Shown: positions 5,967 to 26,600 of the stretch, piece by piece | Position numbering within the stretch: position 1 is the stretch's first letter | Layout: each line of letters begins with the position of its first letter | Virus record (IMG/VR): IMGVR_UViG_3300035162_003914 | Location: 1 to 31,845 of that record | Reading direction: 5' to 3' (one strand) | Length of the DNA: 31,845 nucleotides | Source of the DNA: a virus | Made by a program: the position numbers and the translations under genes | The notes under the pieces: generated by a model | What the model was told of the DNA's origin: nothing | Database searches by the model: none | Seen by the model: the letters and a program-made list of their open reading frames with translations, nothing else

Positions 5967-5970
5967 TAAG

Positions 5971-8900
5971 TTAAGTACCGTCTGTGCCCCATGCTGGTCT
6001 ACTGTCAGGTAATATCCAAGCAGTTGCATTTAAGTCAAACCGGTAAGGCGGGGTTGAATTGCCGGGGGCAACACTAGCAGCTAGCACATTCCAACCACTC
6101 AAATCTTGATTGAATACATAAGCATTGTAGAACATATATCTCATATCAGTAACACTACTTACATCCCAAGAACTAATATCTTGATTGAATGAAACTGCAC
6201 TGGAGAACATAGTATCCATATTAGTAACACTACTCACATCCCAAGAACTAATATCTTGGTTGAATGCGTCAGCACCGTAGAACATAGTATTCATATCAAT
6301 AACATTAGAGGTCCCAGTTCCTGTAGTCCAAGTTAACGGGACACCACCATTATTAAATGCATCAGCATTGTAGAACATAGATTGCATATCAGTAACACTA
6401 CTTACATCCCAAGAACTAATGTCTTGATTGAATGCGGTAGCGCCATAGAACATACCATACATATTAGTAACAGTACTAAAATCCCAAGAACTAATATCTT
6501 GATTGAATGACTTGAAGAAGAACATACTCTGCATATTAGTAATAGGTTCATTCCACTTTACACGAATACCTTCAGCACCGGGCGTTGTGTCATAAACATA
6601 ACTGGCAGGAGCATAAGCAGATCTCCAAGTACTGTTAGTAGGATCTGTTGCACCCGTTAATGGATACAAGATTGTACCGTCTGTGCCCCAACCAGGTTTC
6701 TCTGCTGTTATCCAAGTGACGGGTGTATTGAGATCAAAGTTTGTTGGTGGAGTTGAATTGCCTGGTGCAATACTAGCCGCCAGCACGTTCCAAGAACTAA
6801 TGTCTTGATCGAATGCAGAAGCACCGTCGAACATTCTTTGCATATTAGTAACAGTACTGACATCCCAAGACGAAATGTCAGGATCATTGAACGTTGTATT
6901 AAATGTGAACAACTGTTCCATAGAAGTAATAGGCGATCCTGCTGGCATTAAAATACCAACGTTTGCAATCCACTGATAAGTTGGGTTGGCATTTCTCCAA
7001 GTGTTATTAGTACTAGTAGGATCTGTTGCAGTATTACTTAACGGATACAGGATGCCGCCACTTGTACCCCAGCCGGGTTTCTCTAATGTTGTCCAACTGG
7101 TAAGTGTACTGGTGTCAAAGTTCGTTGGTTCTGATGCTATTAGACTAACGTTCCAAGAACTAATATCTTGATCGAATGAAGTTGCTTGATAGAACATATA
7201 ACTCATATCAGTAACACTACTGACATTCCAAGAACTAATATCTTGATTGAATCCACTATTAGCATTGAACATATTTTGCATAGTATCAACACTACTTACA
7301 TCCCAAGAACTAATATCTTGATTGAACGCATCAGCATTGTAGAACATAGCATTCATATTAGTAACATTAGCAGTACCAGTTCCAGCAGTCCAAGTTAATG
7401 CTACACCACCATTGTTGAATGCGGTAGCATAGAAGAACATATCATTCATATTAGTAACACTACTCACATTCCAAGAACTAATGTCTTGATTGAATGCGTC
7501 AGCAGAGTAGAACATACGACTCATATCAGTAACACTACTTACATTCCAAGAACCAATGGGTTGATTGAATGCGTCAGCATTTTGGAACATAGTACCCATA
7601 TTAATAACACTACTCACATCCCAAAAACTAATGTCTTCATTGAATGTAGAAGCGCCGTTGAACATCTGACTCATATCAGTAATAGGAGCATTAGCACCTA
7701 TACCTTCGCCTGGATAATAAGTGTATCCAGCAGGTTTCGTCGTCCAATTAGCACTAGTAGGATCTGTTAATGATGTAAGTGCGTAAGTGTATGCTCGTGT
7801 ACTATAATCGGGTACAGTACCCCAGAGAGGTCTAGATAATACCCAAGCAGTTGCGTTGGTATCAAAGTCTGTAGGTGGCGTTGAATTGAATGCGGCAACA
7901 CTAGCAGCCAGCACATCCCAACCACTCAAATCTTGATTGAATGCAGTAGCACCGTCGAACATTTGGATCATATTAGTAACACTACTTACATTCCAACCAC
8001 TAATATCTTGATTGAATGAGGTGCAATCCTCAAACAAGTTATACATAAATTGAACATTAGCAACATTCCAACCACTAATATCTTGATTAAACGCACCTTG
8101 ATTAGTGAAGAACGATCCCAAGTTTTGAACATTCGACATGTTCCAATTACCCACGCCTGCGGCATTAAAGATGCCCGCGGAAACACCTATCTGAGAGAAC
8201 ATTTGATCGGCAAAAGTAACATATTGCATATCCCAAGTAAGAGGAACACCTCCATTATTAAATGCGGGTGTGCGGCCCAACATTTCTTCTACAAAGCCGT
8301 AGGGGGTAATAGTTGAAATGTCTTGGTTGAATGAGGTACAACCCTCAAACATGTACGCGAAAATCTGTGGATCATCATACGAATCTGTGTTAGGATAGTT
8401 CGTATAACTAGTACCATAGAGTGCAGTCATTGCCGCCGTTTCTGTTAGAGGACCAGTAGTAGTCCAAGTAAGCGCCACGCCACCGTTGTTGAATGCAGTA
8501 GCACTGTAGAACATAGCAAGAAACTTTATAACTTTTGTAACGTTCCAAGAACTAATATCTTGATTGAATGCATAAGCTCGATTGAACATGCCAGCCATAT
8601 TAGTAACACTACTAACATTCCAAGAATTCAATGGTTGATTGAATACATCAGCATTGTAGAACATAGAATCCATCCGCGTGACATTACTCACATCCCAAGA
8701 ACTGATGTCTTGATTGAACAAAAGAGCACTTCGGAACATGCCTCTCATAGTAGTAACAGCACTTACATCCCAAGATGAAACGGCCGGATCATTGAATACT
8801 AATGCAAACCAGAACATATAACTCATATCAGTAACATTACTGACATTCCAAGAACTAATATCTTGGTTGAATGCATTAGCTCGATAGAACATGCCAGCCA

Positions 8901-11900
8901 TATTAGTAACATTACTTACATACCAAAAACTAATATCAGGATCGTTGAATGTAGTAGCAGTTTGGAACATCCATCCCATATCAGTAATAGGTGATCCTGC
9001 TGGCATTAAAATACCAACGTTTGCAATGAACTGATACGTTGGATTAGCAGTTCTCCAAGTAGTACTAGTAGGATCTGCTGCAGTATTACTTAACGGATAC
9101 AAGATGCCGCCAGCAGTACCCCAAAGAGGTTTCTCTATTGTTGTCCAATTGGTAGTTGTATTATCATCAAAGTTCGTTGGTTTTGACGCTATTAGACTAA
9201 CATCCCAACCACTAATGTCTTGATCGAATGAAGTAGCACCGCTGAACATATCACTCATATCAGTAACACTACTTACATCCCAAGAACTAATATCTTGATT
9301 GAATGCAGTAGCATCCCAGAACATATCACTCATATTAAGAACACTATTTACATTCCAAGAACCAATATTTTGATTGAATACAGTAGCACCGGTGAACATC
9401 CCAGCAGTAGTCAGAAGACTACTGGTATCTGTCCAATCTAAGGCTACACCGCCATTGTTGAATCCATTATTAGCACTGAACATACGATACATAGTAGTAA
9501 CACTACTTACATCCCAAGAACTAATATCTTGATTGAATACATTAGCGGTGTAGAACATATTATTCATATCAGTAACATTAGCAGTACCAGTTCCAGTAGT
9601 CCAAGTTAGTGCTACGCCACCGTTGTTGAATGCTTCAGCATTTTGGAACATAGTACCCATATTCTGAACACTGCTCACGTCCCAAGAACTAATATCTTGA
9701 TTGAATGCATAAGCATCGTGGAACATACTATACATATTAGTAACTGAACTTACATTCCAACTGCTAATATCTTGATTGAATGCATTAGCGTGGTAGAACA
9801 TATAACTCATATCAGTAACATTAGCAGTACCAGTAGTCCAAGTTAGTGCTACGCCGCCGTTGTTGAATAGATCATTGTTATAGAACATCCGCTCCATAGT
9901 AGTAACACTACTCACATCCCAAGAACTTATATCTTGGTTGAATACAGCTCGATAGAACATCTGATGCATATTAGTAACACTACTCACATCCCAAGAACTA
10001 ATATTTTGGTTGAATTCATCAGCATCCGCGAACATACGAAACATATTAGTAACACTACTTACATCCCAGTAGCTTGTATGCTCATCTCCGGCAAACGCAG
10101 AGTTGTCGAACATTCTTTCAAAAGATGTTGGCGGAATATCACTAGACCAACCATGATTAGGGATATAAGCGGCCCAATCGCCATTGGCACCTGAGTCCGC
10201 GACGTTACTGTTAAAATAGCTACTAGTTAAATCAGTAGGACTATTGCATGGATAGTAATAAGCCAATGCACCAATGTCGGTTTTAAGGTTTTCATTAAAG
10301 GTGGCAAAATCAGGTCTGCTTAATAAGTAAGAAGTTGCCCCAAGATCAAACTCAAAATATGAAGCTCCGGATTTGACTAATCTATTAGTCCAACCAGACA
10401 AATCTTGGTTAAAGGCAGCTGCCCCTTTAAGCATCTTAGCAAATTTATTAATCGAAGTTACAACCCAAGAGCTGATATCTTGATTGAACGCTGAAGCATT
10501 TTCGAACATGGAAGATACATCAGTAACACTACTCATATCCCAAGTTATAACGTCTGGATCATTAAATGTCGTACTATCTTTGAATAGACTAGCAAAGCTA
10601 GTAGGTTGTCCTGAAAAATAAACTCCAATAGATGGCCGGAAGGTATATCCTAAACTATAAGATGCACTAATAGGATCCTCTGTTGTATTAGTGAGAGGAT
10701 ATAACACTAAGCCAACACCCCATGTCGGAATGTTCTCAGATTCTAGAGCAGAACCTGTAGCAAAATCAGTTGGTAGTGACGGTATTATTACCGTCCCCGT
10801 CCAACCACTAATGTCTTGATTGAATGTAGTCGCGCCATTAAACATGTTATCCATGTTAGTAACAAACGACACATCCCATTCAGTAATTCTTGGATCATTG
10901 AATGTCGTATTATCTCTGAACATGCCAGACATATTAGTAATAGGTTCACTAGTAAATATACCAGTTCCAGGCACTATTGTATAATCGGGCACGTTTAGCT
11001 CTGGATCGTTGTAGCCGTCGTAAGCTACTTGCGTAGCACCATTGTAACCGTCTGTTACAAATTGATATCCTTCAGGTGCATGTGCATCTCTCCAAGCCTG
11101 CGTTGTCGGGTCTGTTGTGTGTGAATCAGATAATGGATAATAATATCGATTAGGATATCCCCACATCGGGTGTGCTATCGAATAATCGTTAGCATTTCCA
11201 TCCTCATCGGCTTTAAAGTAGTTTGCTTTAGTACCATATTGAACACGGAACAAATCGAATAATCGGTCATTAATTTCACTATCAAAATCAACAAGATCGG
11301 ACCATACATTACCATATACTAATTTTCCTGCGTCTTGTAAAGTCTTTACAACGTCATAGACTGGAATTGCAGCCAAACTAGTATTCATTCTTGAAGCGTC
11401 GATCAACCCTAAAGGGCCAACACCTAATGCCGGATCTTCAGGTGTTCCTTGAAGCATGCCAGTAAAGTGCGCGCATCTGCGTAGATCCCAATCGATTCTA
11501 TATGTCCCACCGTTGTTGAATGAAGCGCCCGCAAAAGCTTGGTACACGGTTCTAACATCAGTCATATTCCAATTATCAAGATTCTGATTAAATGCATCAG
11601 CATTCAAGAACATATATTCCATATAAATGCCAGCGCCATAATTTTTATAAACTTCTCGTCGAGCACCTACGTTCCAATTACTGATGTCTTGATTGAATGT
11701 GGCATTACTGTAGAACATCGAATCAAATGCAGATACACTACCTACGTCCCAATTGCTAATATCACAATTGAAATCGCCGTAGGCAAAGCATTCGACCATA
11801 TCACCTATGTTTGATGTGTCCCAAGTATTGAATACACTAGTAGTTCCGACTGCACCACTGTAACCGAGCCTTAAAGAACCAAACAGTGCCGGTGTATCAA

Positions 11901-14900
11901 CTGCACTATCAAAAAAGGCATCCCAGTCTCCTTCCCAGTTTTGTCTTGCTATGCGGCCAAAATTGAAGTTTGGAAAGTTTGCATCTCCCCACTGAAGAAT
12001 CTTGTTCGGCCGGAGGTAAGTAGTATGATTATTTTGATTGTTTTTAATATGAATAGATGCGCCATATATTTTTACTTGCCGAGTGCTTTTATCGGCATAG
12101 TCGTGGCTAAAGTGTGAAAGAGGCTCTCCGCTAATAGTATTGTTACTATCGTCAGGAAGCTTCCAAGGCTTTCCAAAATAGTTATCAACATTGTCAGCAT
12201 CATCTTCGTCATAAGTCTTAGCTTCTTCCAACCAAGTTATATTAGTTGAGTAATCGATAGGCGAACCGTCGCCCCAATCAATTGCTATGTAATGGCCGTT
12301 TACATCTGGCTTGCCACCTAGAATGGTCAAATTTATGCTTGTTCCCGAAGACCCGGATGGGGATTCTCCAACCTCTATTATCATTGGTGTTCTTGTCAAT
12401 AAATCTGGCACCGGAGTCCAATCTACTTGATCTGTCACGTCTTCGTAAGCAACAGTCCAACCCCCATACTCGCCTCCCTGCCAATAATATATCGTAAATT
12501 TATATACATGTTCGTCAGTACGACATAAAAGATACCTGTGCCGATTAGTATTCTCGGCTGTCATTTCGCCCCAAGAGCCCCACGGTTCCGTGTGATCCCA
12601 CTGAAACCAATCGTACCACAGCTTCTCTGTTAAACAATTTTCTATGTTGTCCCAGCCTATAGCCCAAGAAGTCCCTTTAATCAACTTCGCGTAATCGCCT
12701 TCGTCCAGCTTATCATCATCTCCGGTCCAAGAAGGATACGCATTGTATAGTGGACCGTTATAATTTCTAATAATTACTATGCCGGGTTCGAGTGCAAGTC
12801 GAGAGTTCCCAGCTTCGCCGAAGTATTCATCGTCCATCCGAAGGTATTCAGTCGGCCCTGATTTGAAAACCGTAGCTTCTGGCCAATCTCTTCTAATATC
12901 GTCAATAGTGATGGGCTTACCAAGAGCCCCGATCGTTTCATCCTCCTCGCGGGTTGGATTCCGATTTGAATAACCGTAGCCTCCCATCATGTTCACATAA
13001 TAAGGATAAGTGGACCACCTATAATCTACAATATCATGTACAAGCTGTCGGTGATATCCTTCTCCTTTGCCTATCTCATCACCTGCCATCATGCCATATT
13101 GTAACTCAGTATGTGGTGTTTGAGTATGTAAAGAAAAAACGCGATAGAAGGATTCAATACCCGGTGACTCATAGTCATCTTCAAGTTGACTCCTATCTAA
13201 GAAACTAGTCAAGTTCCAATCTTGCGCGCTCCAAGTCCGGGCCGCGAGCGCTGATCGAGCAGTGGAATAACTAGACAAGCGAAATATATCATCAAACCCC
13301 GAGACTTTACTAGTATCCCAGTTGCTTAAGTCCCTTCGCATCCTGTAAGCATCGTAGAACGCAGAACTCATATCAGTAATATTACTTACATCCCAAGAAC
13401 TAATGTCTTGGTTAAATTCGGGGTTGTCCTCGAACGTGGAACTCAGACTAGTAACTCTACTAATATCCCAATTCCCAACGCCTAAAGGTGCGGCAGGATC
13501 TCCCACGATCTCGTAATCAGGCATCGTAAGGCTCCACGCGCCTTTAGATAATTGGCCCGAGCCATCTGCGGAACCGGATGGATCGTTAAAAATGAATCTT
13601 ATCTGGTGATCCGTATTGAGACTTGTTAGATCGCTTGGAGGCGGTTCTGCTGATGTAATTGCAAACATAGAACCGGCGTTTCGTGCAATGGGTGGATCAA
13701 GCGAAGGATTACTATCGCCTACGGTGTCATCATAATTTTCAAGTATAACATCATATAATGCTTTATCCGATTCATAAAAAATAACAGACCACTTTAGTTC
13801 ACCGTAGTAGTCTAGGTCAGATGCATCTATAGCGGTAAGGTCATACAAGTATTTTTGAATATATCTTGCGCTGACAACAAATTTTCTGTTGGGAGCGGTG
13901 CCGGTTTCTATTGTTTTGAGGTCGGCCAATACTGTTCCGCCTCCACCACCGCCAAGATATATCGTAGGGCCCGATACTTCATCTTCATTATCTTTTATGT
14001 AAGACCACCTTTCGGTAGGTGTGGTCAAAGCGGTAGAACTTCTGACATTGTTTTCGTTATTGTGTATTCCACCAAAATTAATCTTAGAAGAGTTTCCAAC
14101 CCAGAAAGATTTAAATTGCGCCTCATTGCTAAAGCCAGCAATGTCTATAGCCCAAGGAGCTACTACTATGTAATTGCCGGAACGATCATAAATAGCTGTT
14201 GAAGTCGGGTAAAGGGGGTAAACAATAGGATCAGTAATTACTCTATAAATTATAGTTTTACTGCTGGGGTCTGCCTCAATGTCTGACAGCTCTGCCATTT
14301 TAGTAGTGTAGAAAGAATCTTCGTTAGAAAGTGATTGTTCTATAATTCTGTTATTAGGACTTTCGACGAAAGGTACTGTCTGCAAGACATTAGTATTTTT
14401 AAAGGCGCTGTCCAAAGTAGTCACATAACCGGTTTTCCAATTAGTTACATCTATTGGAGCATTTCCTGCTGCCAATGGCTCACCCGCGAACATATCCTCC
14501 ATGCTGACGATAGGACGAGTAGAAGTTATCCCTACGGTAGCAGTAAATGTATATCCTGCTGGTGCTCGCAGAGGATTGCTATTCCACAGTTCAGACGTTG
14601 GATCAGTGAGCATTCCCGGCATAGGATATGTAAAAATCCCATCGACTGCGCCGAATTTAGGCTGTATTGTTTCAGTCCATTGAAAGGCCGCGCGAGAAAA
14701 ATTAATAGGAGGCCCAATGAATTCACTAACGCTCCAGGCAGTCAAATCTTTATTAAACTGCGTATTATTTTGGAACATGCCGTCCATATTTCTAATATTA
14801 GATACATCCCAACTAGAAATATCTTCATTAAATGTGGTGTTAGCAAACATATTAGCAGTGTTAGATACACCACTCATATCCCATTTGGTAATGTCAGCTT

Positions 14901-14910
14901 TTAATGGCAT
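5971..14910 (-). CDS. Giant DUF285/BspA-type repeat protein (2,979 aa)
   Basis: This is an enormous repeat protein placed between gp15 and gp16, where T4 has nothing. I count about 55 copies of a roughly 26-residue unit of the form MF-x5-FNQDISSWDVSSVTNM, the DUF285 (BspA-like, bacterial surface 26-residue) repeat known from secreted adhesins. N-terminal residues 1-150 and 460-560 carry diverged units. Residues about 150-460 and 570-860 are unique; the latter is rich in Trp, Tyr and Asp, for example WYDWFQWDHTEPWGSWGE. A PKD-like cap with AIDWGDGS lies near residue 875. From about residue 1,280 onward the units become nearly uniform. A linker P-x-WGT-x-LYPL-x-DPTS recurs about eight times, and the protein ends inside one copy (RPAWGTDGT). 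The start has AGGA 7 nt upstream of ATG, 4 nt after the gp15 stop. Role inferred: a virion surface or collar adhesin. No enzyme motif was seen. Confidence 0.9.
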   Translation of the reverse strand: MPLKADITKWDMSGVSNTANMFANTTFNEDISSWDVSNIRNMDGMFQNNTQFNKDLTAWSVSEFIGPPINFSRAAFQWTETIQPKFGAVDGIFTYPMPGMLTDPTSELWNSNPLRAPAGYTFTATVGITSTRPIVSMEDMFAGEPLAAGNAPIDVTNWKTGYVTTLDSAFKNTNVLQTVPFVESPNNRIIEQSLSNEDSFYTTKMAELSDIEADPSSKTIIYRVITDPIVYPLYPTSTAIYDRSGNYIVVAPWAIDIAGFSNEAQFKSFWVGNSSKINFGGIHNNENNVRSSTALTTPTERWSYIKDNEDEVSGPTIYLGGGGGGTVLADLKTIETGTAPNRKFVVSARYIQKYLYDLTAIDASDLDYYGELKWSVIFYESDKALYDVILENYDDTVGDSNPSLDPPIARNAGSMFAITSAEPPPSDLTSLNTDHQIRFIFNDPSGSADGSGQLSKGAWSLTMPDYEIVGDPAAPLGVGNWDISRVTSLSSTFEDNPEFNQDISSWDVSNITDMSSAFYDAYRMRRDLSNWDTSKVSGFDDIFRLSSYSTARSALAARTWSAQDWNLTSFLDRSQLEDDYESPGIESFYRVFSLHTQTPHTELQYGMMAGDEIGKGEGYHRQLVHDIVDYRWSTYPYYVNMMGGYGYSNRNPTREEDETIGALGKPITIDDIRRDWPEATVFKSGPTEYLRMDDEYFGEAGNSRLALEPGIVIIRNYNGPLYNAYPSWTGDDDKLDEGDYAKLIKGTSWAIGWDNIENCLTEKLWYDWFQWDHTEPWGSWGEMTAENTNRHRYLLCRTDEHVYKFTIYYWQGGEYGGWTVAYEDVTDQVDWTPVPDLLTRTPMIIEVGESPSGSSGTSINLTILGGKPDVNGHYIAIDWGDGSPIDYSTNITWLEEAKTYDEDDADNVDNYFGKPWKLPDDSNNTISGEPLSHFSHDYADKSTRQVKIYGASIHIKNNQNNHTTYLRPNKILQWGDANFPNFNFGRIARQNWEGDWDAFFDSAVDTPALFGSLRLGYSGAVGTTSVFNTWDTSNIGDMVECFAYGDFNCDISNWDVGSVSAFDSMFYSNATFNQDISNWNVGARREVYKNYGAGIYMEYMFLNADAFNQNLDNWNMTDVRTVYQAFAGASFNNGGTYRIDWDLRRCAHFTGMLQGTPEDPALGVGPLGLIDASRMNTSLAAIPVYDVVKTLQDAGKLVYGNVWSDLVDFDSEINDRLFDLFRVQYGTKANYFKADEDGNANDYSIAHPMWGYPNRYYYPLSDSHTTDPTTQAWRDAHAPEGYQFVTDGYNGATQVAYDGYNDPELNVPDYTIVPGTGIFTSEPITNMSGMFRDNTTFNDPRITEWDVSFVTNMDNMFNGATTFNQDISGWTGTVIIPSLPTDFATGSALESENIPTWGVGLVLYPLTNTTEDPISASYSLGYTFRPSIGVYFSGQPTSFASLFKDSTTFNDPDVITWDMSSVTDVSSMFENASAFNQDISSWVVTSINKFAKMLKGAAAFNQDLSGWTNRLVKSGASYFEFDLGATSYLLSRPDFATFNENLKTDIGALAYYYPCNSPTDLTSSYFNSNVADSGANGDWAAYIPNHGWSSDIPPTSFERMFDNSAFAGDEHTSYWDVSSVTNMFRMFADADEFNQNISSWDVSSVTNMHQMFYRAVFNQDISSWDVSSVTTMERMFYNNDLFNNGGVALTWTTGTANVTDMSYMFYHANAFNQDISSWNVSSVTNMYSMFHDAYAFNQDISSWDVSSVQNMGTMFQNAEAFNNGGVALTWTTGTGTANVTDMNNMFYTANVFNQDISSWDVSSVTTMYRMFSANNGFNNGGVALDWTDTSSLLTTAGMFTGATVFNQNIGSWNVNSVLNMSDMFWDATAFNQDISSWDVSSVTDMSDMFSGATSFDQDISGWDVSLIASKPTNFDDNTTTNWTTIEKPLWGTAGGILYPLSNTAADPTSTTWRTANPTYQFIANVGILMPAGSPITDMGWMFQTATTFNDPDISFWYVSNVTNMAGMFYRANAFNQDISSWNVSNVTDMSYMFWFALVFNDPAVSSWDVSAVTTMRGMFRSALLFNQDISSWDVSNVTRMDSMFYNADVFNQPLNSWNVSSVTNMAGMFNRAYAFNQDISSWNVTKVIKFLAMFYSATAFNNGGVALTWTTTGPLTETAAMTALYGTSYTNYPNTDSYDDPQIFAYMFEGCTSFNQDISTITPYGFVEEMLGRTPAFNNGGVPLTWDMQYVTFADQMFSQIGVSAGIFNAAGVGNWNMSNVQNLGSFFTNQGAFNQDISGWNVANVQFMYNLFEDCTSFNQDISGWNVSSVTNMIQMFDGATAFNQDLSGWDVLAASVAAFNSTPPTDFDTNATAWVLSRPLWGTVPDYSTRAYTYALTSLTDPTSANWTTKPAGYTYYPGEGIGANAPITDMSQMFNGASTFNEDISFWDVSSVINMGTMFQNADAFNQPIGSWNVSSVTDMSRMFYSADAFNQDISSWNVSSVTNMNDMFFYATAFNNGGVALTWTAGTGTANVTNMNAMFYNADAFNQDISSWDVSSVDTMQNMFNANSGFNQDISSWNVSSVTDMSYMFYQATSFDQDISSWNVSLIASEPTNFDTSTLTSWTTLEKPGWGTSGGILYPLSNTATDPTSTNNTWRNANPTYQWIANVGILMPAGSPITSMEQLFTFNTTFNDPDISSWDVSTVTNMQRMFDGASAFDQDISSWNVLAASIAPGNSTPPTNFDLNTPVTWITAEKPGWGTDGTILYPLTGATDPTNSTWRSAYAPASYVYDTTPGAEGIRVKWNEPITNMQSMFFFKSFNQDISSWDFSTVTNMYGMFYGATAFNQDISSWDVSSVTDMQSMFYNADAFNNGGVPLTWTTGTGTSNVIDMNTMFYGADAFNQDISSWDVSSVTNMDTMFSSAVSFNQDISSWDVSSVTDMRYMFYNAYVFNQDLSGWNVLAASVAPGNSTPPYRFDLNATAWILPDSRPAWGTDGT
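6926..7185 (-). repeat. Long direct repeat, copy 1
   Basis: This segment of about 260 bp matches 8984-9237 with only scattered differences and one two-codon indel. A 35-base run starting at 6935 is identical to one starting at 8993. It encodes the linker GSPIT preceded by the VGILMPA, YPLSNTA-DPTS and SLIAS-PTNFD segments. The copies are offset by 2,058 bp, exactly 686 codons, so recombination between them would stay in frame. Confidence 0.85.
8984..9237 (-). repeat. Long direct repeat, copy 2
   Basis: This is the partner of 6926-7185, in the same orientation and the same reading frame of the giant repeat gene. It bounds one complete super-module of DUF285 units plus linker. Confidence 0.85.
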
Positions 14911-14914
14911 TAAA

Positions 14915-16195
14915 TTATCCTGTATTCTTAAACATGTTTGAAGTATCTATGACGTTTGAAATATCCCAATTTGTTAATGAAGATGCTTCACCGGTGAAAT
15001 TAATGCAGTCTTCAAACATAGAAGACGTGGAAGATCCCGGCAAGAAATTAGGTTCATTAGGAGCAGTAAGTGTTACTAAATTTTCATTTCCTTTGAACAT
15101 TTCTACAGCACTTGAGAAGGTAGTGTTTTCACCCCAATCTATAACATCTATTACACTGGAGTCAAATTTGATATGAGCTCCTGCAAACACTAGTTTGATG
15201 TCTGCTATACCAGTGCCAGTGTATGTATGCGTCAGCACCGTATTAGCTGTCCCACCTGATATAGAAGTGGGTTCATTAGATCCATCTCCCCAATCAACAT
15301 CAAACTGCGTAGATAAGAAGCCAGATTGAGGTACGGTAATTGTTATTGTATTTCCAACCATTAAACTCTTATCGACTCGGACAATCATTTCATTGCCTCG
15401 ACCAATTTTCTTGATTACTCCGTAATCATCATCAAAGTTAATAAGAGAAAGGTCAACACTATCTTGAATTAACGTAGTTGGGCCACCTGCCACTGTTAAA
15501 CCTGGTTGGAATGATAATTGCTCTTCGAATTCTGTATTGATAGGTGTATCTGTAGCAATATCCAAATCGATAAACTTGATGACCTTCTTCTCGCGTTCGG
15601 GGCCGAAGTACCATGCTTTCATTGTAAAATTCAGAGTCCACATTATAGTGCGACTTTCCGTGAAAGCCCCCTCGTAGATCTCCTCACTAGACACACTATT
15701 CAAAATGAGAGGAATGTCCAAAGGATCTAGGCCATCCACGATGGTGGCCGTCTGAGTCATATCTGGATTAAAGAACGGCACGATTTGCTCAACCAACTGT
15801 ATGGCGTCTTCGTTATATTTTGCCATGATATAGAGAGAAAACTCCATATTATAGGGAGCACCAGCATAATGAAAGTTTCGTGAACCTGTATCTCCATCAC
15901 CGATTGTTTTTCTAATTTTACGAGTAGGTGATATTTTTCTTTCGGGATCGAAGGTGTATCCAGAAATCTCAAAAGACATTCTAGGTAATGTGATCTGAAC
16001 CCCTGGCTCTCTATCTGTTTGTGTGGCTTGTGCCAACACTTTTTGCCATGGAGCGTAAGAAATAGGGACAATCATCTGCTGGACGGTGACACCCTGATTG
16101 TCGACTCTCTTTACCATTAGCTGGTTGAAGTATGTGCCGAATAAAGCTACATATTTTCGAGTAGTCTTATTATAGAAATAATTAGCAATTGACAC
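14915..16195 (-). CDS. 15: gp15 tail terminator with C-terminal DUF285 extension
   Basis: Residues 1 to about 268 are the tail sheath stabiliser/terminator gp15, which caps the sheath and tube and joins the tail to the neck; T4 gp15 is 272 residues in total. Family features include FYNKTTRKYVALFGTYFNQ at the start, SYAPWQKVLAQ near 46-56, YNMEFSLYIMAKYNEDALQ-like text near 115-132 and FTMKAWYFGP near 190-199. Residues about 270-426 are extra: a PKD-like cap (QFDVDWGDGS near 297-306, VIDWGEN near 351) followed by the first DUF285 repeats (NWDISNVIDTSNMF, 409-422). The GTG start at 16195 has AGAGGT upstream and lies 1 nt after the gp14 stop. The frame stops after MFKNTG, while the DUF285 pattern continues in the next gene, four bases on and one frame over. 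Confidence 0.92.
   Translation of the reverse strand: MSIANYFYNKTTRKYVALFGTYFNQLMVKRVDNQGVTVQQMIVPISYAPWQKVLAQATQTDREPGVQITLPRMSFEISGYTFDPERKISPTRKIRKTIGDGDTGSRNFHYAGAPYNMEFSLYIMAKYNEDAIQLVEQIVPFFNPDMTQTATIVDGLDPLDIPLILNSVSSEEIYEGAFTESRTIMWTLNFTMKAWYFGPEREKKVIKFIDLDIATDTPINTEFEEQLSFQPGLTVAGGPTTLIQDSVDLSLINFDDDYGVIKKIGRGNEMIVRVDKSLMVGNTITITVPQSGFLSTQFDVDWGDGSNEPTSISGGTANTVLTHTYTGTGIADIKLVFAGAHIKFDSSVIDVIDWGENTTFSSAVEMFKGNENLVTLTAPNEPNFLPGSSTSSMFEDCINFTGEASSLTNWDISNVIDTSNMFKNTG
14918..15388 (-). other. PKD-like cap and first DUF285 repeats fused to gp15
   Basis: This domain-level feature covers gp15 residues about 270-426. DUF285 proteins commonly begin with a beta-rich WGDG-containing cap and an IxxWG strand before their repeats, and both are visible here. 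A second cap of the same type occurs inside the giant gene around 12,030-12,300, so the combined system looks like two concatenated BspA-type modules. Confidence 0.75.
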
Positions 16196-16196
16196 T

Positions 16197-16898
16197 TTAT
16201 ACCTCTGGGTTTGAATCTGGTATAGTTATGTTCTCACTGAAAGGATCGGTTTCAGTAAAATCAAGAATGTTGTCAGCCTCTTGTTCGAATACTAGGTTTC
16301 TAGCAAAAGCATCTTGTGAACCTAGAGTTTCAAGTGTCTCTGTGTTAGCAGTACCTTCGAATGTAGTGTCTCTGCTAGCAAAGTATCGATCTATGTTATC
16401 GCGACCCGTTTCGAATCTTTCATTAGAATATGTCATCAACTCACACTGCATGTCATAGACATATAGACTACCAGCCTGATAGAATACAGACTCATTCTCT
16501 ACAAATTTGATTTCGAACATTCTACCATCAAGTGGGAAATAGATGATGTCGCCTTCTCTCGGTCTAGTTTTGAGATAGTTCTCTTTTGTTACATAACGTT
16601 CAAAGGATCTATTAGCAACGGTGAATGTTGCAGTGTCTTTGATTTGTAAACCAAACTTAGACAGGAAGTCTCCTTCACCCTCGAAGCCATCCATGCTTTT
16701 CACATAGACTTCAAACTCAAAGGTCTGGTCAAAGATGCTCAAATCATCTTCATTTAATATCGTGTCTATTGCTTGATACGACCGAGTGATGTAGATAATA
16801 TCAATACCATACATACGAATAGATTCAATAACAAGATCATCGATTAGATTTTGTTCATTGAAATTATCATAATTTCTGAAAAATGGATTGGTAGGCAT
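16197..16898 (-). CDS. 14: gp14 neck protein
   Basis: This is a neck (head-to-tail connector) protein; in T4, gp13 and gp14 form the neck below the portal that receives the tail. The product has 233 residues, against 256 in T4. The N-terminal NPFFRNYDNFNEQNLIDDLVIESIRMYGIDI, then FEVYVKSMDGFEGEGDFLSKFGLQI (about 82-107) and RPREGDIIYFPLDGRMFEIKFV (about 130-152), match the conserved pattern of T4-like gp14. The ATG lies 3 nt after the gp13 stop codon with GGA from the gp13 end serving as ribosome site, and the 3' end is separated from gp15 by a single base. This packing indicates tightly coupled translation of gp13-14-15. Confidence 0.9.
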   Translation of the reverse strand: MPTNPFFRNYDNFNEQNLIDDLVIESIRMYGIDIIYITRSYQAIDTILNEDDLSIFDQTFEFEVYVKSMDGFEGEGDFLSKFGLQIKDTATFTVANRSFERYVTKENYLKTRPREGDIIYFPLDGRMFEIKFVENESVFYQAGSLYVYDMQCELMTYSNERFETGRDNIDRYFASRDTTFEGTANTETLETLGSQDAFARNLVFEQEADNILDFTETDPFSENITIPDSNPEV

Positions 16899-16901
16899 TG
16901 C

Positions 16902-17645
16902 TTATCCAATAAAATTATAGGTGAGTGGCTGGAGATTCTGAATAACCTCTTCTTCCATTAGCTTTCGTTCTTCTCTTGCCTCGGAGAGAATAGCTTCCCC
17001 GTTGAAAGATAATCCACCTACTAATTGAACACCGGTGAATTTGGTCAGATTAGCACCCCATTGCTCCTTTACTAATAATGTAGCATAATTCTGTAACCAT
17101 CGATCACCCCAAACATCGGGATATACTGCTGGATCGATAACATCATAAGCTTCGACTATCAAATAATCTCCAAGGACTAATGAAGAAGAATCAGTATCGA
17201 GATGCAATTTATTGACGTGTCTGTTATATCGAATAGTAGGCTGTCCTACTAGAATTTCTTGCATTTGCTCTATGTGCATCATCGATTGATAATAGTTCTG
17301 GACTTCATATCCAGTGATATCTTCCATATTATTTAATACAAACTGATATTGAACATTGAACATCCCAGCACCTGATGCGACACTGGAATTAAAGTTGAAG
17401 ATGCCAGAGATACCTAAGATGCCGGCAGGAAGTTCGAAGTACTTGTTGTCGATAGTATCTTGAGTAATTTGATGCTTCAGGAAGACTTGTTGGCTGCCAC
17501 TATAATGATAGTCTCGCCAGAAAGAAACCGCTTCATCAACCCTGTCTTCCACCTGCTCTTCAGATACATTGATCTCAATTACGGGAGCCCCGAGTTTCCT
17601 TAGAATATATTCTTTGAATAAATCTCTTGTGGTTGGTGCGGCCAT
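16902..17645 (-). CDS. 13: gp13 neck protein
   Basis: This is a neck protein that works with gp14 to close the filled head and accept the tail. It has 247 residues, against 309 in T4 and similar to shorter marine T4-like versions. The opening TTRDLFKEYILRKLGAPVIEINVSEEQVEDRVDEAVSFWRDYHY is highly characteristic, as are KHQITQDTIDNKYFELPAGI (about 57-76) and DRWLQNYATLLVKEQWGANLTKF (about 182-204). The ATG at 17645 has an AAGGA site about 9-10 nt upstream. A perfect late promoter lies 110 nt upstream, so this gene appears to open a transcription unit for neck and tail completion. Confidence 0.93.
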   Translation of the reverse strand: MAAPTTRDLFKEYILRKLGAPVIEINVSEEQVEDRVDEAVSFWRDYHYSGSQQVFLKHQITQDTIDNKYFELPAGILGISGIFNFNSSVASGAGMFNVQYQFVLNNMEDITGYEVQNYYQSMMHIEQMQEILVGQPTIRYNRHVNKLHLDTDSSSLVLGDYLIVEAYDVIDPAVYPDVWGDRWLQNYATLLVKEQWGANLTKFTGVQLVGGLSFNGEAILSEAREERKLMEEEVIQNLQPLTYNFIG

Positions 17646-19686: not shown

Positions 19687-19694
19687 TATTTATA
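19687..19694 (-). promoter_or_regulatory. Late promoter (TATAAATA) before the 125-aa gene
   Basis: The minus strand reads TATAAATA exactly, 32 nt upstream of the start at 19655. It overlaps the stop codon of the cupin gene (TAA at 19690-19692), so promoter and coding sequence share bases. Confidence 0.8.
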
Positions 19695-20031
19695 AACGCT
19701 CGATATCATCCTCGTTGCAATCCTCACCATACTGTATTTCTAGTACCAAAAGCTCTTGGTTAGTATCATTTCGAAGTTGATGCCAATGACCAACTGGGAT
19801 GTCAAATCTATCAAACATTTGCATATGAACTGTTGTCAGAAAATCCCTATGCAACCCAAACCGGACAGTTGCATCACCACGAACAACCATCCATTGTTCA
19901 CTTCGATATCGATGTCTTTGTAGACTGAGTGATTTCTGAGGCTCCACGAACAATTCTTTTACTTTGACCGTAGCTGTTTTTCTCTCACTGAGCTCGTAAA
20001 AGACATTATAAGCTCCCCACGGTTTATTCAT
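19690..20031 (-). CDS. ManC-type cupin (mannose-6-phosphate isomerase domain)
   Basis: This small cupin corresponds to the C-terminal isomerase domain of bifunctional ManC/AlgA proteins, which interconvert fructose-6-phosphate and mannose-6-phosphate for GDP-mannose synthesis. From the ATG at 20031 it has 113 residues and contains only this domain, not the guanylyltransferase part. Family hallmarks are the opening NKPWGAY, then SLSLQRHRYRSEQWMVV (about 34-50; metal-binding His and Glu), DIPVGHWHQLRN (about 77-88; further His ligand) and the terminal EDDIERL. An upstream ATG at 20043 would add four residues, but GGTGG just upstream favours 20031. The start overlaps the methyltransferase gene by 8 nt. 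Stand-alone cupins of this type may bind or epimerise nucleotide sugars, so the exact substrate is open. Confidence 0.88.
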   Translation of the reverse strand: MNKPWGAYNVFYELSERKTATVKVKELFVEPQKSLSLQRHRYRSEQWMVVRGDATVRFGLHRDFLTTVHMQMFDRFDIPVGHWHQLRNDTNQELLVLEIQYGEDCNEDDIERL

Positions 20032-21250
20032 AAAACCACCCATCAGTAATATACTTGCCTTGTTCTGAGACTACTTTATTGTATAGCTCACCATCAAGTA
20101 ACGGCAAATTTACCCAGACATCTTCCAAACCAGTTTTGTGTGGAGTTGGAGAGGTGTTTATTGATTCTGCCAGTAAAGTATAACCATTCTTTCTCATCCG
20201 AGTTTTATATACTTCTCTTTCTTCACCAGAAATTTGCCTCATACCGAAAGTCACTATTCTGAATTTATATTCAGAAAAAGGTATCTTTTCCATCACCAGC
20301 TTCATTGAATCAAAACCATGGTCGACCTGCAGGTAATCAATAATCAACTCGGAGCCAGAGTACTCTAAGAAGTCCGTATAGTCAATCGACATAGGATCTT
20401 TGCAAATGAAGCCGTTTTTACGAATCTTTTTGTGTTCGATGGAAACACGAGGATTTTTCTCTATCGTCGTCCCTGTCCACTCAAAATCTTTTTCTAGCAA
20501 ATAAGTATTGTTTAACCTATCACCAAAAAGAGCACCGATTTGCAGATAGGTGCCGTTTCTCTTTCCCTTCAATAAAGACAGTACAATCATGTCTTGCAGA
20601 CGCCTGGAATAATTTTTGTCGATATATTCAAGGCCTGGGAAATCTATTTTCCAATTAGAGCATAACGATGAATTATATCTAATATTTTGAGGATATCCAT
20701 GCTCTAAAAGTAAATCATCAAATTTCTTTAAGTATTCGGGATCTTTATAGCCATTGTACCATGTTTTTGCTTCAAATGTCTTTTCTTTTGATTCCTCAAT
20801 CCCTCTTATCTTCCAATCGGCAAGCGCATCAAAATATAGCAACCCAAAGCGGCCTGGGTATTTGCAGTCAATATCATCTGTGGGCTCTTCACACAAGAGG
20901 CCGGAAGCAGCATACATGAAAGCTCGTTTCCAATGTGACTTTTCAACGCACCAACTGCATAACCAATACCATGCTTCAGGTCGATCTGGTCGAAGTGCAA
21001 TAGCATTCTGTAGGATTCCCTCAACAGTTCCAGTTCTACGCCCTAGTCGATGATACATGATGGCCATACGCAACAGACAAGTGTACTGGAGAAGTGTATC
21101 TTCCCATTCATTATCAGCACATCTAAGATAGAAAGGTACTGCTGCAGCACACTGGCCTCTTTTATCATATTCAGTTGCTAGTGCAAATAATTTTGCGGTA
21201 TCGTGAACATCCTCTAAGTGTTCATGCAATCGACGTGTTAACTCTAACAT
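20024..21250 (-). CDS. TPR-domain and FkbM-type methyltransferase fusion
   Basis: This 408-residue protein (from the ATG at 21250) has two parts. Residues about 10-130 contain helical pairs of the tetratricopeptide type (KLFALATEYDKRGQCAAAVPFYLRCA, then TVEGILQNAIALRPDRPEAWYWL), a protein-interaction scaffold often fused to sugar-modifying enzymes. Residues about 215-385 resemble FkbM-family SAM-dependent methyltransferases: the glycine-rich segment TYLQIGALFGD, then NNTYLLEKDFEWTGTTIEKNP, where the acid near residue 264 would bind the SAM ribose, and the later YLQVDHGFDSMKLV. FkbM enzymes O-methylate sugars or other small groups. The start is chosen because it lies one base after the stop of the upstream gene and has GAGG 10 nt upstream; a 15-residue extension would lie inside that gene. 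Confidence 0.82.
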   Translation of the reverse strand: MLELTRRLHEHLEDVHDTAKLFALATEYDKRGQCAAAVPFYLRCADNEWEDTLLQYTCLLRMAIMYHRLGRRTGTVEGILQNAIALRPDRPEAWYWLCSWCVEKSHWKRAFMYAASGLLCEEPTDDIDCKYPGRFGLLYFDALADWKIRGIEESKEKTFEAKTWYNGYKDPEYLKKFDDLLLEHGYPQNIRYNSSLCSNWKIDFPGLEYIDKNYSRRLQDMIVLSLLKGKRNGTYLQIGALFGDRLNNTYLLEKDFEWTGTTIEKNPRVSIEHKKIRKNGFICKDPMSIDYTDFLEYSGSELIIDYLQVDHGFDSMKLVMEKIPFSEYKFRIVTFGMRQISGEEREVYKTRMRKNGYTLLAESINTSPTPHKTGLEDVWVNLPLLDGELYNKVVSEQGKYITDGWFYE

Positions 21251-21251
21251 G

Positions 21252-22295
21252 TTAAAAAATCCTCGTTTTATCGACATATGACATAAAATCATCAAACGGC
21301 ATTTTCAATAAGAATGTCGCTGCATCAGCTAATCCGTAAGATATTAATATGCTTCCATTATGAAGAGCAACTCCTGTTGCAAATTCAATCCCATACTGGT
21401 GACCATTGTCTGCAAAAGTAGTAAGCCCCATAAAGTTAAACTGCTCACTCGCCTTAACTATATTCCAGTCATTGTCCCATATAACTACTCTGTGAAGATA
21501 TAGACCATCTTTTCGCACATGCGCATCTTTTCTTAATTCAACTTCGTGAGTTATAGCCATTCTGTGATTTGCATCAATTCGAATGACTTGAGTCCCGCCT
21601 CGGATATCTCTAGGAAAAGGATACTTCCTGTTATCTTGGCACATTACGGTGTATGATTGCTGAGTCTCTATGTCATACTTAACGACCTCTGTCGGATTAG
21701 TCCACTTAACAAAGTGCCATGGCATATCCAAAACTGGCATCCAATTTTTTTCACAATAAGTGTCACTATCGTTAGGAGCCTTAATAGGATTTCTAGAAAC
21801 TTCTCTCCATTCGTTATTGATATATTCAATTTCGGCCATTTCCATCCGACCAGTACCCTTGTCATCATAACAATCTCGGCGGACACCACACAAGAATAAA
21901 CGGTCTTCCCATTCGACAAGACGGCCATCTTCTAGTCCTATAAAATTCCAAGTTGGTTTGCCTGTATCAAAAGCCATATTTACTTTTGAAAAGCTTTTGA
22001 CATCAAGAGATTCGTCTAATTCGCAGACATAGTTATCTGTTTTTAGAGTGACATCATTTTCTGGATGTATGTACTGGAGAGGACCGTAAACATGTGGGAA
22101 CCTTTTACCTTCGCTATGATATAAGGCGTAATTCACCTGCCGGATGTTAAAAATAATTTTACCTTTGTGGATCAGAATAGATGGATTCATCTGCCCTGTT
22201 TCTGCGGTCTCTTCTGGTGGGAGAAAAACAGGATGCAAACTGCCTCCCCTCTTCACGGCCCAACTAGCTAACCCGCCATAGTATAACTCGTGCAT
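21252..22295 (-). CDS. GH130-like five-bladed beta-propeller protein
   Basis: This 347-residue protein resembles the beta-propeller glycoside phosphorylase/hydrolase families related to GH130, which act on beta-mannosides. Motifs seen: QMNPSILIHKGKIIFNIR (about 35-52), the family-like NFIGLEDGRLVEW (about 117-129) with its acidic ED pair, EKNWMPV (about 182-188), RGGTQVIRI (about 232-240) and the closing ISYGLADAATFLLKMP (about 318-333). These repeat with strand-rich spacers consistent with five blades. The ATG at 22295 is preferred over a GTG at 22301 because GGAG is five bases before the ATG. It ends one base before the methyltransferase gene. Whether it is catalytic or a glycan-binding propeller cannot be decided from sequence; such genes are found with tail genes in other marine T4-like phages. 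Confidence 0.78.
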   Translation of the reverse strand: MHELYYGGLASWAVKRGGSLHPVFLPPEETAETGQMNPSILIHKGKIIFNIRQVNYALYHSEGKRFPHVYGPLQYIHPENDVTLKTDNYVCELDESLDVKSFSKVNMAFDTGKPTWNFIGLEDGRLVEWEDRLFLCGVRRDCYDDKGTGRMEMAEIEYINNEWREVSRNPIKAPNDSDTYCEKNWMPVLDMPWHFVKWTNPTEVVKYDIETQQSYTVMCQDNRKYPFPRDIRGGTQVIRIDANHRMAITHEVELRKDAHVRKDGLYLHRVVIWDNDWNIVKASEQFNFMGLTTFADNGHQYGIEFATGVALHNGSILISYGLADAATFLLKMPFDDFMSYVDKTRIF

Positions 22296-22334
22296 ACACA
22301 CTCCATAATAAAAATCATATCTACTATATAGGAC

Positions 22335-23684: not shown

Positions 23685-26600
23685 TTATATATTCTCCAAT
23701 AATTTATTTACCATAATCTTCAATTCATCAATTTGCTCTTGTTGACTATTTATGATATCTTGTTGGCCTTTGATTGCTTCGATGAATAGTCCGCCCATCT
23801 TACCATAATCCACACCGTATTCATCTCTATCTTCGGCGTAAGTAACAACATCTGGAAAATGTTCAAGCACTTCCTGTGCAATGACACCAGACTTTCTAGC
23901 ACTAGCTTCTTCAAGTGTTATGTGTTCTCTCTCAGCAACTTCTTCTGGATCTTTGAGCGTATAATAGACTCCTCTCAAGTTCAATAAGATATCCAGAGCT
24001 CCATCGATAGTATGGATATTCTCTTTCTTCCTACGGTCTGAATAAGCCACAATATTACTAGTAGCATATATAGCGCCATTGACATACATAGTATAAGCTG
24101 AAGATGTTGCGCTTGTCCCAACGCCCTGGCAGAATCTATCCCACACCCAGTATTGAGACCACCCTCGATCTTGCCAGTATATGCCCCCAGCACCTTGGCG
24201 CCCGCCTTGGAACATGAGATGAGGTCGTGCAGTGACCTGGGAAAAAGCAAAACCATACCAACCGTTTCTATTACCAAGGATGTTCCAAGAACCATAACTT
24301 GTTGATTGGTTGGGGTAGATGTGACCCCCGTTTGTATCCGTATAGAACCCAGATGTATTGGTTTTCATCCAAGTATATTTGTATGAGTAACCGCTAGTAC
24401 CGTTGATCTGGAATCTAAGAGCACTGCTGTTGTAATCCGAGTAGAACCGCATGCCCTCATAATTCTGGTATGCAGCAAACTTCAGGCCAGTATGGTACTG
24501 GAATACCGTATCGGGGTAAGGATAGGACCACCCCCCGGTTTCTTGAAAGCCCCAACGATAAGGTTGACTTGATCTGGTGATGCCTGAGTTACCGCCAGGA
24601 TAAGGATTGCCGTATGATCCATAGGCGTCGATGTTCTGAAAGCGGGAAGTGCCGGCCCAAAGAATTCTATACTTTGGGTTATTATAATCGTAGGCCGATG
24701 CAAACCGGAGAACTCTCCTAACATATGTATCACCGGTCGAATAGTAATTAAGGTATAGCCCGTAGCCCCCTGCGCGAGCATCAAGGTGCAGATTGCCGTT
24801 CGTGACTGCCACTGATGCATATGAAGAAGAAAATCCTTGGCGGCCGTTTGTACCAACTGCTAAATAAGCTCCCCAAGTTAAGTTAGGACCATATAATGTT
24901 CCAGTTCGGAATCTACTTCCATATGCACTTGAGGTAGAATTTAGATCTAGATAATAATTTGCATCGCTAGCATCACGGAAAATATATGCCCGAGAATCAC
25001 CAAGCGTAAAGTTGTATGCGTATCCAGCGTTCTGCTGAAGATATTGACTTAATCGGCCGCCATTAGCAGTTGTTCCATAATAGCTTCGGATATATGAAGT
25101 ACCATTATTACTATTCGTGTCAACTCGCAACGTGATGTCGGCATACGAGTTTATAGACATGTTGTCGTTGAATGCGCCGGATGAGGATGTCGACGCGATT
25201 CCATGATTGCTATATGAATTATAATTTGCATTCCAATCAAATGATATGTAAGAAATTCTATGCAGACTTGATGAATACGTACCATATCTTCTAGCGTAAC
25301 CGTTAGCGGATGATCGACCAAGATAGATGATGTCTGCATAGACCGTCGGTGCTCGCAGGAATGAATTAACCTGATATCGCCAGAAGGTAGAACCCGATGT
25401 TGGCCGTACTTCTCCAGTATAGAAAAGTCCATTATAATTATACACGTATGAAGTGGAGACAGACCTTAATGCCCAACCCCCACCTTGGTTCAAAAATCCG
25501 ATACTTGGTGCGGTATCAGTGTAAACATATCCTCTTGTGGTGGTGTTTCCAGTTTGGAATCGGATGTACGAGGAGGTTGACGGCGTGGCAAGAATCATTC
25601 TATTACTGCCGTCGGAATACCAATTGACTCCTGTAGCAGAGTTTCTCAGTCCCCGGCTGGTTGCGTTATTAATGAACTCGCCATCATTATCAATAGTACC
25701 ACGGACATCCAAAGATCTCACTATGGAAGTACCGTTAAAGTCTCCGTAAAAATCTGAGTCGTTGCTGTCGTAATAACGTTCCGCGTAAATACCCACACCA
25801 CTGATATTAACCTGGCCATAATGAGTTGTAACGTCGGAGTTTCGATCATACAGCATCAACCATCTGGAAGGATTTAATCTATAAACACCCCAATATCTTG
25901 CTCGTCCCAGATGGATCCTTGACGCGCCGCTGTTATAACCGTTAGACATTATTACATATGAATTCGAATGTGCATAGCCGTTCCAGCCGCTTCTGCCGCT
26001 GACACCGTAAGTCGCTACGTTGCCATAAGGACTTGCCCCGGCAGACTCTCCGCCCGAGGATGTAGAACCGGCCCCTGCCGCCCAAATTCCTGTGCCATAA
26101 GATTGGAAGTACACACCTGTCCTGCCAAGGGGTCTAAACCAATTGCGGGCATATACAGCGCTCAAATAGGAGCTGCCGTTCAAGTCGAGATAATAGTTGC
26201 CGGGATCATTATAGTCTTCCCATCTTACAGCGGCAATACCGGAGGAATTAGGTATATCTACCCGAGCTCCTCCTCGGATCTTAACCCTCCAATCATCTGC
26301 GTTATTCTTAAGCCCAAAGTCATTGGCGTTATTTGCTTCGATCCACCCTCGCGCGATGTTAGACGTGGTAGTGAACAGCATCTTATTATCAGCTCGAACC
26401 GAATAAACTCTCCATCGGTTAATAGCGTCTGAGTAAAAATGCATCGCATTTGCAGTGTTATATAAACCACGACCATTGGTGTCATTGCGGAACCAACCAT
26501 CGTTATAGATTTCACCACGGTTATCAATGTTGTTCGTTATAGAAGTAGAAGCAAAATCTCCGTAGTAGGTACCGTTATTACTATCGTAAAATCGTTGTGC

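Follow-up and report, generated by a model that had tools for sequence, protein, structure and literature searches.

Gene content of the neck and packaging block

The window, the whole stretch of DNA analysed here, is a metagenomic virus record of 31,845 bases (IMG/VR record IMGVR_UViG_3300035162_003914) in which the neck and packaging genes of a T4-like phage all lie on the minus strand. According to the list of open reading frames (ORFs) and to the Pfam and PHROGs matches, their order is gp13, gp14, gp15, a giant ORF of DUF285 repeats, gp16, gp17, gp18, gp19 and gp20. The gp15 ORF is extended at its C-terminal end and closes inside a DUF285 repeat, and the giant ORF opens with the next half of that repeat. 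This split is conserved in a second phage and suggests an adhesive fibre docked at the virus neck. The features of the locus are the following:

16902..17645, minus strand: gp13 neck protein (phrog_211, head-tail adaptor), without a Pfam match
16197..16898, minus strand: gp14 neck protein, by Pfam and PHROGs
14915..16195, minus strand: gp15 ORF with C-terminal extension (gp15x), 426 residues; PF16724, 211 bits
15410..16195, minus strand: gp15 core, residues 1-262, collinear with the complete gp15 of relatives
15131..15388, minus strand: PKD-like 'WGDG' stretch, residues ~270-355, starting near Met270
14924..15031, minus strand: DUF285 match (PF03382) in gp15x, residues 389-424
14908..14921, minus strand: gene boundary between gp15x and the giant (AGGA 14918-14921, TAA 14915-14917, 4 nt, ATG 14908-14910)
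5971..14910, minus strand: giant DUF285/BspA ORF, 2,979 residues, by PF03382 and the unit profile; C-terminal end WGTDGT
5970..15405, minus strand: inserted segment of 9,436 nt, replaced by 27 nt at the same place in a related locus, L009
5495..5935, minus strand: gp16 small terminase, next gene after the giant, by Pfam and PHROGs

The initial annotation had described positions 5971 to 16195 as one protein with nearly 3,000 residues of DUF285 repeats, attached to gp15 within the T4-like gp13-gp20 block. The size and the place within this block were correct; the single protein, on the other hand, is in fact two ORFs, the first closed by a TAA and the second provided with its own Shine-Dalgarno sequence and ATG in another frame.

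A conserved break between gp15 and the giant ORF

The gp15 ORF has a GTG start with GAGG 6 nt upstream, and a TAA stop. PF16724 covers residues 6-222 (cut-off 25 bits), and the best Foldseek match of an AlphaFold2 (AF2) model of the core is gp15 of T4 (9mkb_AB), which together with 4huh and 4hud gives E values of 8e-14 to 1e-11. By family and by fold, this protein is a T4-type tail terminator. In T4, gp15 is described in passages of two papers as a hexameric tail terminator whose residues 203-245 contact gp14 (PMC12270204; PMC3004832). From approximately residue 263, gp15x continues with a linker, the WGDG/PKD-like stretch and roughly one DUF285 repeat, followed by MFKNTG and the TAA. No PKD_4 match was obtained by the Pfam scan in the WGDG stretch of the window itself; the homologous stretch of a second record, G041 (L197), gave E 7e-5 and 23 bits, for a cut-off of 27. 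PF03382 scores 20 or 22.5 bits on the gp15x repeat alone and 25.2 bits in a six-frame search in which the match overruns the stop (cut-off 25), and the MFKNTG end lies two residues past the DUF285 match. Since GAGG is found 7 nt upstream of Met270, the inserted gene may have started at this residue in the past, or may still do so now.

The ATG of the giant, at 14910, lies 4 nt past the TAA of gp15x and in a different frame, with AGGA as a Shine-Dalgarno sequence 7 nt upstream; an equally good one precedes 8 of the 274 ATGs within the giant ORF. The gaps among 12 true pairs of neighbouring genes go from an overlap of 20 nt to 80 nt, and because the 4-nt gap falls within this range the junction looks like an ordinary gene boundary. 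The solenoid is divided inside a repeat, given that gp15x has the half that ends in MFKNTG and that M..[KL][AV]DI[TS]KWDMS, the half that follows, opens the giant. A search for sequences close to the junction, with a 20-base pattern, returned one chance match, in an unrelated contig.

The same division is present in G041 (38.9 kb; locus L184), a record found through the giant of another contig, L178. Its gp15 ORF, of 425 residues, is extended in the same way and likewise closes with MFKNTG; TAA-AAT-TAA comes next, and then a giant ORF of 4,387 residues that opens with ATG in the frame of gp15. Between the two phages, 182 of the 260 aligned core residues are identical (70%), and 88 of 160 in the extension. 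The proportion of synonymous differences (pS) over the core, the extension and residues 2-60 of the giant is 0.74-0.86, near saturation, while the non-synonymous proportion (pN) is 0.22, 0.30 and 0.33, respectively; this low pN at nearly saturated synonymous sites indicates that the core, the extension and the N-terminus of the giant are under purifying selection. When residues 1-55 of the G041 giant were placed along the window giant, the highest score (161) was obtained at residue 1, against 136 for the second-best position; for the N-terminus of the window giant along the G041 giant, residue 1 was again the best position (161, against 142 for the second). Between the two phages the final 34 residues of gp15x score 125, compared with at best 56 in the window giant. 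Given the saturated divergence and two giants that align best at residue 1, the break is old, has been kept and lies at the homologous point. Because the stop and a fresh start recur at this point in both phages, the attachment must be non-covalent or take place elsewhere, and one covalent chain of gp15x and the giant is not supported as written in the initial annotation; the part of the claimed attachment that stood is that gp15 itself bears a DUF285 extension. An ORF upstream of gp13 in the G041 contig (L197, 18290-18904) has what we take to be an intein/Hint-like motif.

The broken repeat could also be explained if gp15 and the giant were made as one chain, by a frameshift or by read-through of the stop, and with a +1 shift the distance from M to W would indeed stay at 17, as in the unit before. 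However, the giant of G041 is in the same frame as gp15 behind two TAA codons, so that a double read-through would be needed, and the giant of the window has its own Shine-Dalgarno sequence and ATG; this explanation is very improbable. A shared frameshift was rejected, since the giant is in the +1 frame in the window and in the same frame, behind the stops, in G041, and a sequencing error was ruled out as the cause of the break because G041 has the same break with in-frame stops. The possibility that the locus as a whole is an assembly chimera or a sequencing error draws on the metagenomic nature of the record and on DUF285 ORFs that are frequently truncated by the end of a contig, as though assembly failed at the repeats; nevertheless, the recurrence of the stop-start arrangement in G041, a record with saturated divergence at synonymous sites, largely refutes it already, L009 matches the insert on either side, and the likelihood of this possibility is close to nil.

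By its flanks, L009, the nearest of 80 gp15 loci kept from one scan, is an empty site. Its gp15 is 81% identical to that of the window over residues 1-263, shares the sequence up to YGVIK and ends normally. The match between the two loci continues until position 15406 of the window (6299 of L009) and resumes at 5969 (6327), with 27 nt between the flanks in L009 versus 9,436 nt in the window.

The giant DUF285 protein and its relatives

PF03382 has 20 matches in the window, the best with 118 bits, and 19 of the 20 exceed the 25-bit cut-off alone or together with their frame neighbours. A profile of the 25-residue unit, built on 22 of the protein's own units and with more than 5 bits taken as a match, found 52 units in the 2,979 residues of the giant, one in the gp15 ORF and none in each of 20 residue shuffles, so the earlier count of about 55 copies was fair. 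Header modules are interspersed among the units. When the whole giant was searched in three pieces, DUF285 was the only Pfam family over its cut-off; the PHROGs matches were four families of unknown function and one weak endolysin row, and no whisker or fibritin family was matched along the whole protein (Pfam E up to 1; PHROGs E up to 0.01). The AF2 model of the last 369 residues has a predicted local distance difference test score (pLDDT) of 71, and its best Foldseek match, a leucine-rich repeat (LRR) protein, is non-significant (E 0.66). Among the matches listed by VIA-align for a DUF285 model nearly all are LRR proteins, internalins included, with Z up to 11.8, a value inflated by the repeats; the top figures are a root-mean-square deviation of 3.3 and 188 aligned residues. 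As modelled, the DUF285 repeats appear to resemble leucine-rich repeats. The C-terminal motif PDSRP[AV]WGTDGT is common to the DUF285 proteins of the window (5971-6030) and of L143 (5948-8905), which belong to two T4-like lineages.

Viral contigs searched with the extension and with residues 1-980 of the giant yielded no confirmed relatives. Among phage records, only short and weak matches were obtained with the extension (2 records) and with residues 1-980 (30 records), the last 710 residues of the giant matched 112, and one scan of genome contigs gave one weak match, in a metagenome-assembled genome of Lachnospiraceae. The last 710 residues led to L089, the gp15 of L089 to L143, the DUF285 protein of L143 to L178, and L178 to L183-L185. 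In L178 and L183, which share 99.8% identity over 4.5 kb, the giant is cut by the contig edge and immediately precedes gp16 and gp17; two ORFs separate it from gp16 in L184 and L185 (90% over 4.4 kb). The gp16 of these four loci is 72-74% identical to that of the window, and the gp17 of L178, L183 and L185 is 77-78% identical. The end of gp15 is covered in L184 alone. The giant adjoins gp15 in L184. In the records behind 38 of the 80 loci kept, out of 174 confirmed, by a scan for gp15, PF03382 was found in none; many of these 38 are fragments. Laminin_G_3 (PF13385) exceeds its cut-off at the C-terminal end of the giant in L184, L178 and L089; the end of the L185 giant is almost like that of L184, and the one of L183 is like that of L178. 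In L183 (6345-8033), gp20 seems to be divided over two ORFs that are separated by a gap, which may reflect an insertion or a frame break.

C-terminal additions to gp15 are also found with other domains. Like the window gp15, those of L089 (15647-16933, 428 residues) and of the cultured pelagiphage Mosig EXVC030M (L172, 7989-9587, 532 residues) are of the T4 type and extended; unlike it, the L089 extension is a Big_9/cadherin-like domain, and no Pfam family exceeded its cut-off in that of Mosig, which is lectin-like by eye. The complete gp15 of many loci found from the L089 gp15 has 425-436 residues. At least 420 residues are present in 42 of 153 complete gp15 ORFs, duplicates kept (L089, L091 and L092 are one record), a share that is inflated because an extended gp15 served as the query. 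If the neck-fibre interpretation set out below is right, the C-terminus of gp15 is a site where phages add domains.

DUF285 ORFs were also detected in L090, L177, L179-L182 and L186-L194, loci without a match to the gp15 queries; the L177 record has one sub-threshold PF16724 match. In the 180.8-kb record L187, which has no PF16724 match, DUF285 units occur in 21 small ORFs, most of them arranged in tandem.

A putative adhesive fibre at the neck

We consider at about even odds (roughly 0.5) that the giant, translated separately, is an adhesive neck fibre whose solenoid is completed by a docking domain on gp15. The extension is very likely carried on the virion, and a domain on the C-terminus of gp15 would sit at the tail-neck joint. 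With half a repeat contributed by gp15x and the next by the giant, the solenoid would continue over two chains, the close spacing of stop and start could couple their translation, and the docked giants would form adhesive fibres at this joint; in relatives, the concanavalin/laminin-G-like tip of the giant could bind sugars. The sequence shows the arrangement of the genes and its conservation; from it we infer docking by completion of the solenoid, the presence of the giant in virions, its copy number and its adhesive function; that it acts as an adhesin is likely. Giant DUF285 ORFs also precede a subtilase/tail-fibre-like gene followed by gp13 in L089, L096, L097, L100 and L137, and gp13 itself, directly, in L116, which counts in favour of this interpretation. 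The place of the giant in the neck and packaging block, the DUF285 extension of gp15 and the recurrence in related phages, some of them with lectin-like ends, fit an adhesin at the tail-neck joint. Thus, of the neck or collar adhesin proposed initially, the general idea agrees with these data and its covalent form is contradicted by the conserved stop and start. A more specific version, which we hold only tentatively, is that the six gp15 subunits template the non-covalent docking of an adhesin of 3,000-4,400 residues through one divided repeat, and that the stop-start arrangement sets the number of giants per gp15. If the neck-fibre interpretation is right, T4-like phages would attach huge adhesins of leucine-rich repeats to a joint of the virion that is highly conserved, by sharing one repeat between two proteins; this would provide a testable function for phage DUF285 proteins, which belong to PHROGs families of unknown function, and would be relevant to the attachment of phages to cells or particles.

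Several observations weigh against this interpretation. Structure prediction recovered the T4-like gp15 core, but most of the extension has a pLDDT below 56. The extended gp15 and the giant occur together in only two records, the window and G041. None of the 80 loci mentioned above has a gp15 extension, a figure that is not a census because that scan missed L184. In the L089 group and in L143, whose DUF285 ORF of 985 residues lies 3 kb after an unextended gp15 and before a tail-spike-like gene, the giant is not beside a DUF285-extended gp15; L117, L128, L134 and L156, which are of the L089 kind and have a long gp15, yielded no DUF285 ORF, and Laminin_G_3 has no Pfam match anywhere in the window giant. 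In addition, the matches to gp15 and gp16 are 33 to 1,417 nt apart among the loci with gp16, and the longer gaps are filled by other genes, presumably of the nucleotidyltransferase and FkbM-type methyltransferase kinds, to judge by motif. The gp15-gp16 gap is a general cargo slot, and position alone is no proof of a neck role, since extension-free loci with long gaps carry other genes there.

A different place in the virion would accommodate part of these observations: the giant could be an adhesin of the baseplate or the tail fibres, with the gp15-gp16 gap as a mere cargo slot and the extension as an unrelated decoration that remained from the insertion. Unrelated genes do occupy this gap in many relatives, and a large S74 tail-fibre-like ORF is found ~6 kb upstream of gp13 in the window. 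In other phages, DUF285 genes are near tail-fibre or tail-collar genes and away from gp15: two genes after the annotated tail-fibre gene in Nohivirus S31C1; and near tail-collar genes and far from gp15 in ACG-2014f. However, the extension is of the DUF285 type, is shared by two phages with a giant each, is under purifying selection and ends at the point where the giant begins, so that we regard this alternative as rather unlikely. It is distinctly improbable that the giant is absent from the virion, either as a moron, as a host cell-surface protein made during infection or as a decaying insertion. DUF285/PARCEL proteins are mainly known, from part of one report, as membrane-associated and horizontally spread (PMC2996958), which would agree with it; yet the ORFs of 2,979 and 4,387 residues have stayed open with N-termini under purifying selection, they lie in a late structural block, relatives have lectin-like ends and the same repeat is present on the structural gp15.

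Compared with known systems, the putative neck fibre resembles the whiskers and collar formed by T4 fibritin (gp wac) in that both would be fibres at the head-tail joint near gp13, gp14 and gp15, here predicted from genes alone. The whisker gene of T4 lies directly before gp13, unlike the giant gene of the window, between gp15 and gp16. Moreover, fibritin is a coiled-coil trimer, whereas the window has a DUF285 repeat protein encoded after gp15 and a matching repeat on gp15. A section of recent work assigns fibritin to domain III of gp13 (PMC12270204), and an older review states, in the portion available, that a fibritin loop contacts gp15 (PMC3004832). Cyanophage A-1(L) also has long neck fibres, formed by gp82-gp81-gp80, with a carbohydrate-binding module in the distal protein, for which no host binding was found; unlike the window, this fibre is made of trimers strung like beads and is attached by a hook to a pentadecamer of gp5, and the accessible parts of the article mention no tail-terminator docking domain (PMC10966104). 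The 25-residue repeats are those of DUF285/BspA/PARCEL proteins (PF03382, TIGR02167), with PF03382 over its cut-off; excerpts of the PARCEL study describe them mainly from bacteria and eukaryotic microbes, with repeats that are mobile coding elements (PMC2996958). A giant PARCEL/DUF285 ORF of 19,254 bp, ORF 200, is known from the Vibrio jumbo phage vB_VhaM_pir03, whose authors stated that the domain had not been previously described in phages; in the extracts of that paper a table places a DNA-packaging protein shortly downstream, and unlike the window no T4 gp15 context is seen (PMC7765460). The GenBank record of pir03 labels both proteins as hypothetical. Neck fibres and giant phage DUF285 ORFs are therefore already known, whereas a literature search by title and abstract found neither a gp15-DUF285 pair nor a DUF285 protein split with a phage tail terminator.

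Two further regions of the window lie upstream of gp13. The tail-fibre-like ORF ~6 kb upstream (23685-31844) is itself a giant, remains open at the window end and has a Peptidase_S74 chaperone domain near its C-terminal end. Positions 19690-22301 hold a Cupin/mannose-6-phosphate isomerase-like gene and two ORFs with weak matches to TPR and GH130, and counterparts of these genes are present in L009, L010 and G041.

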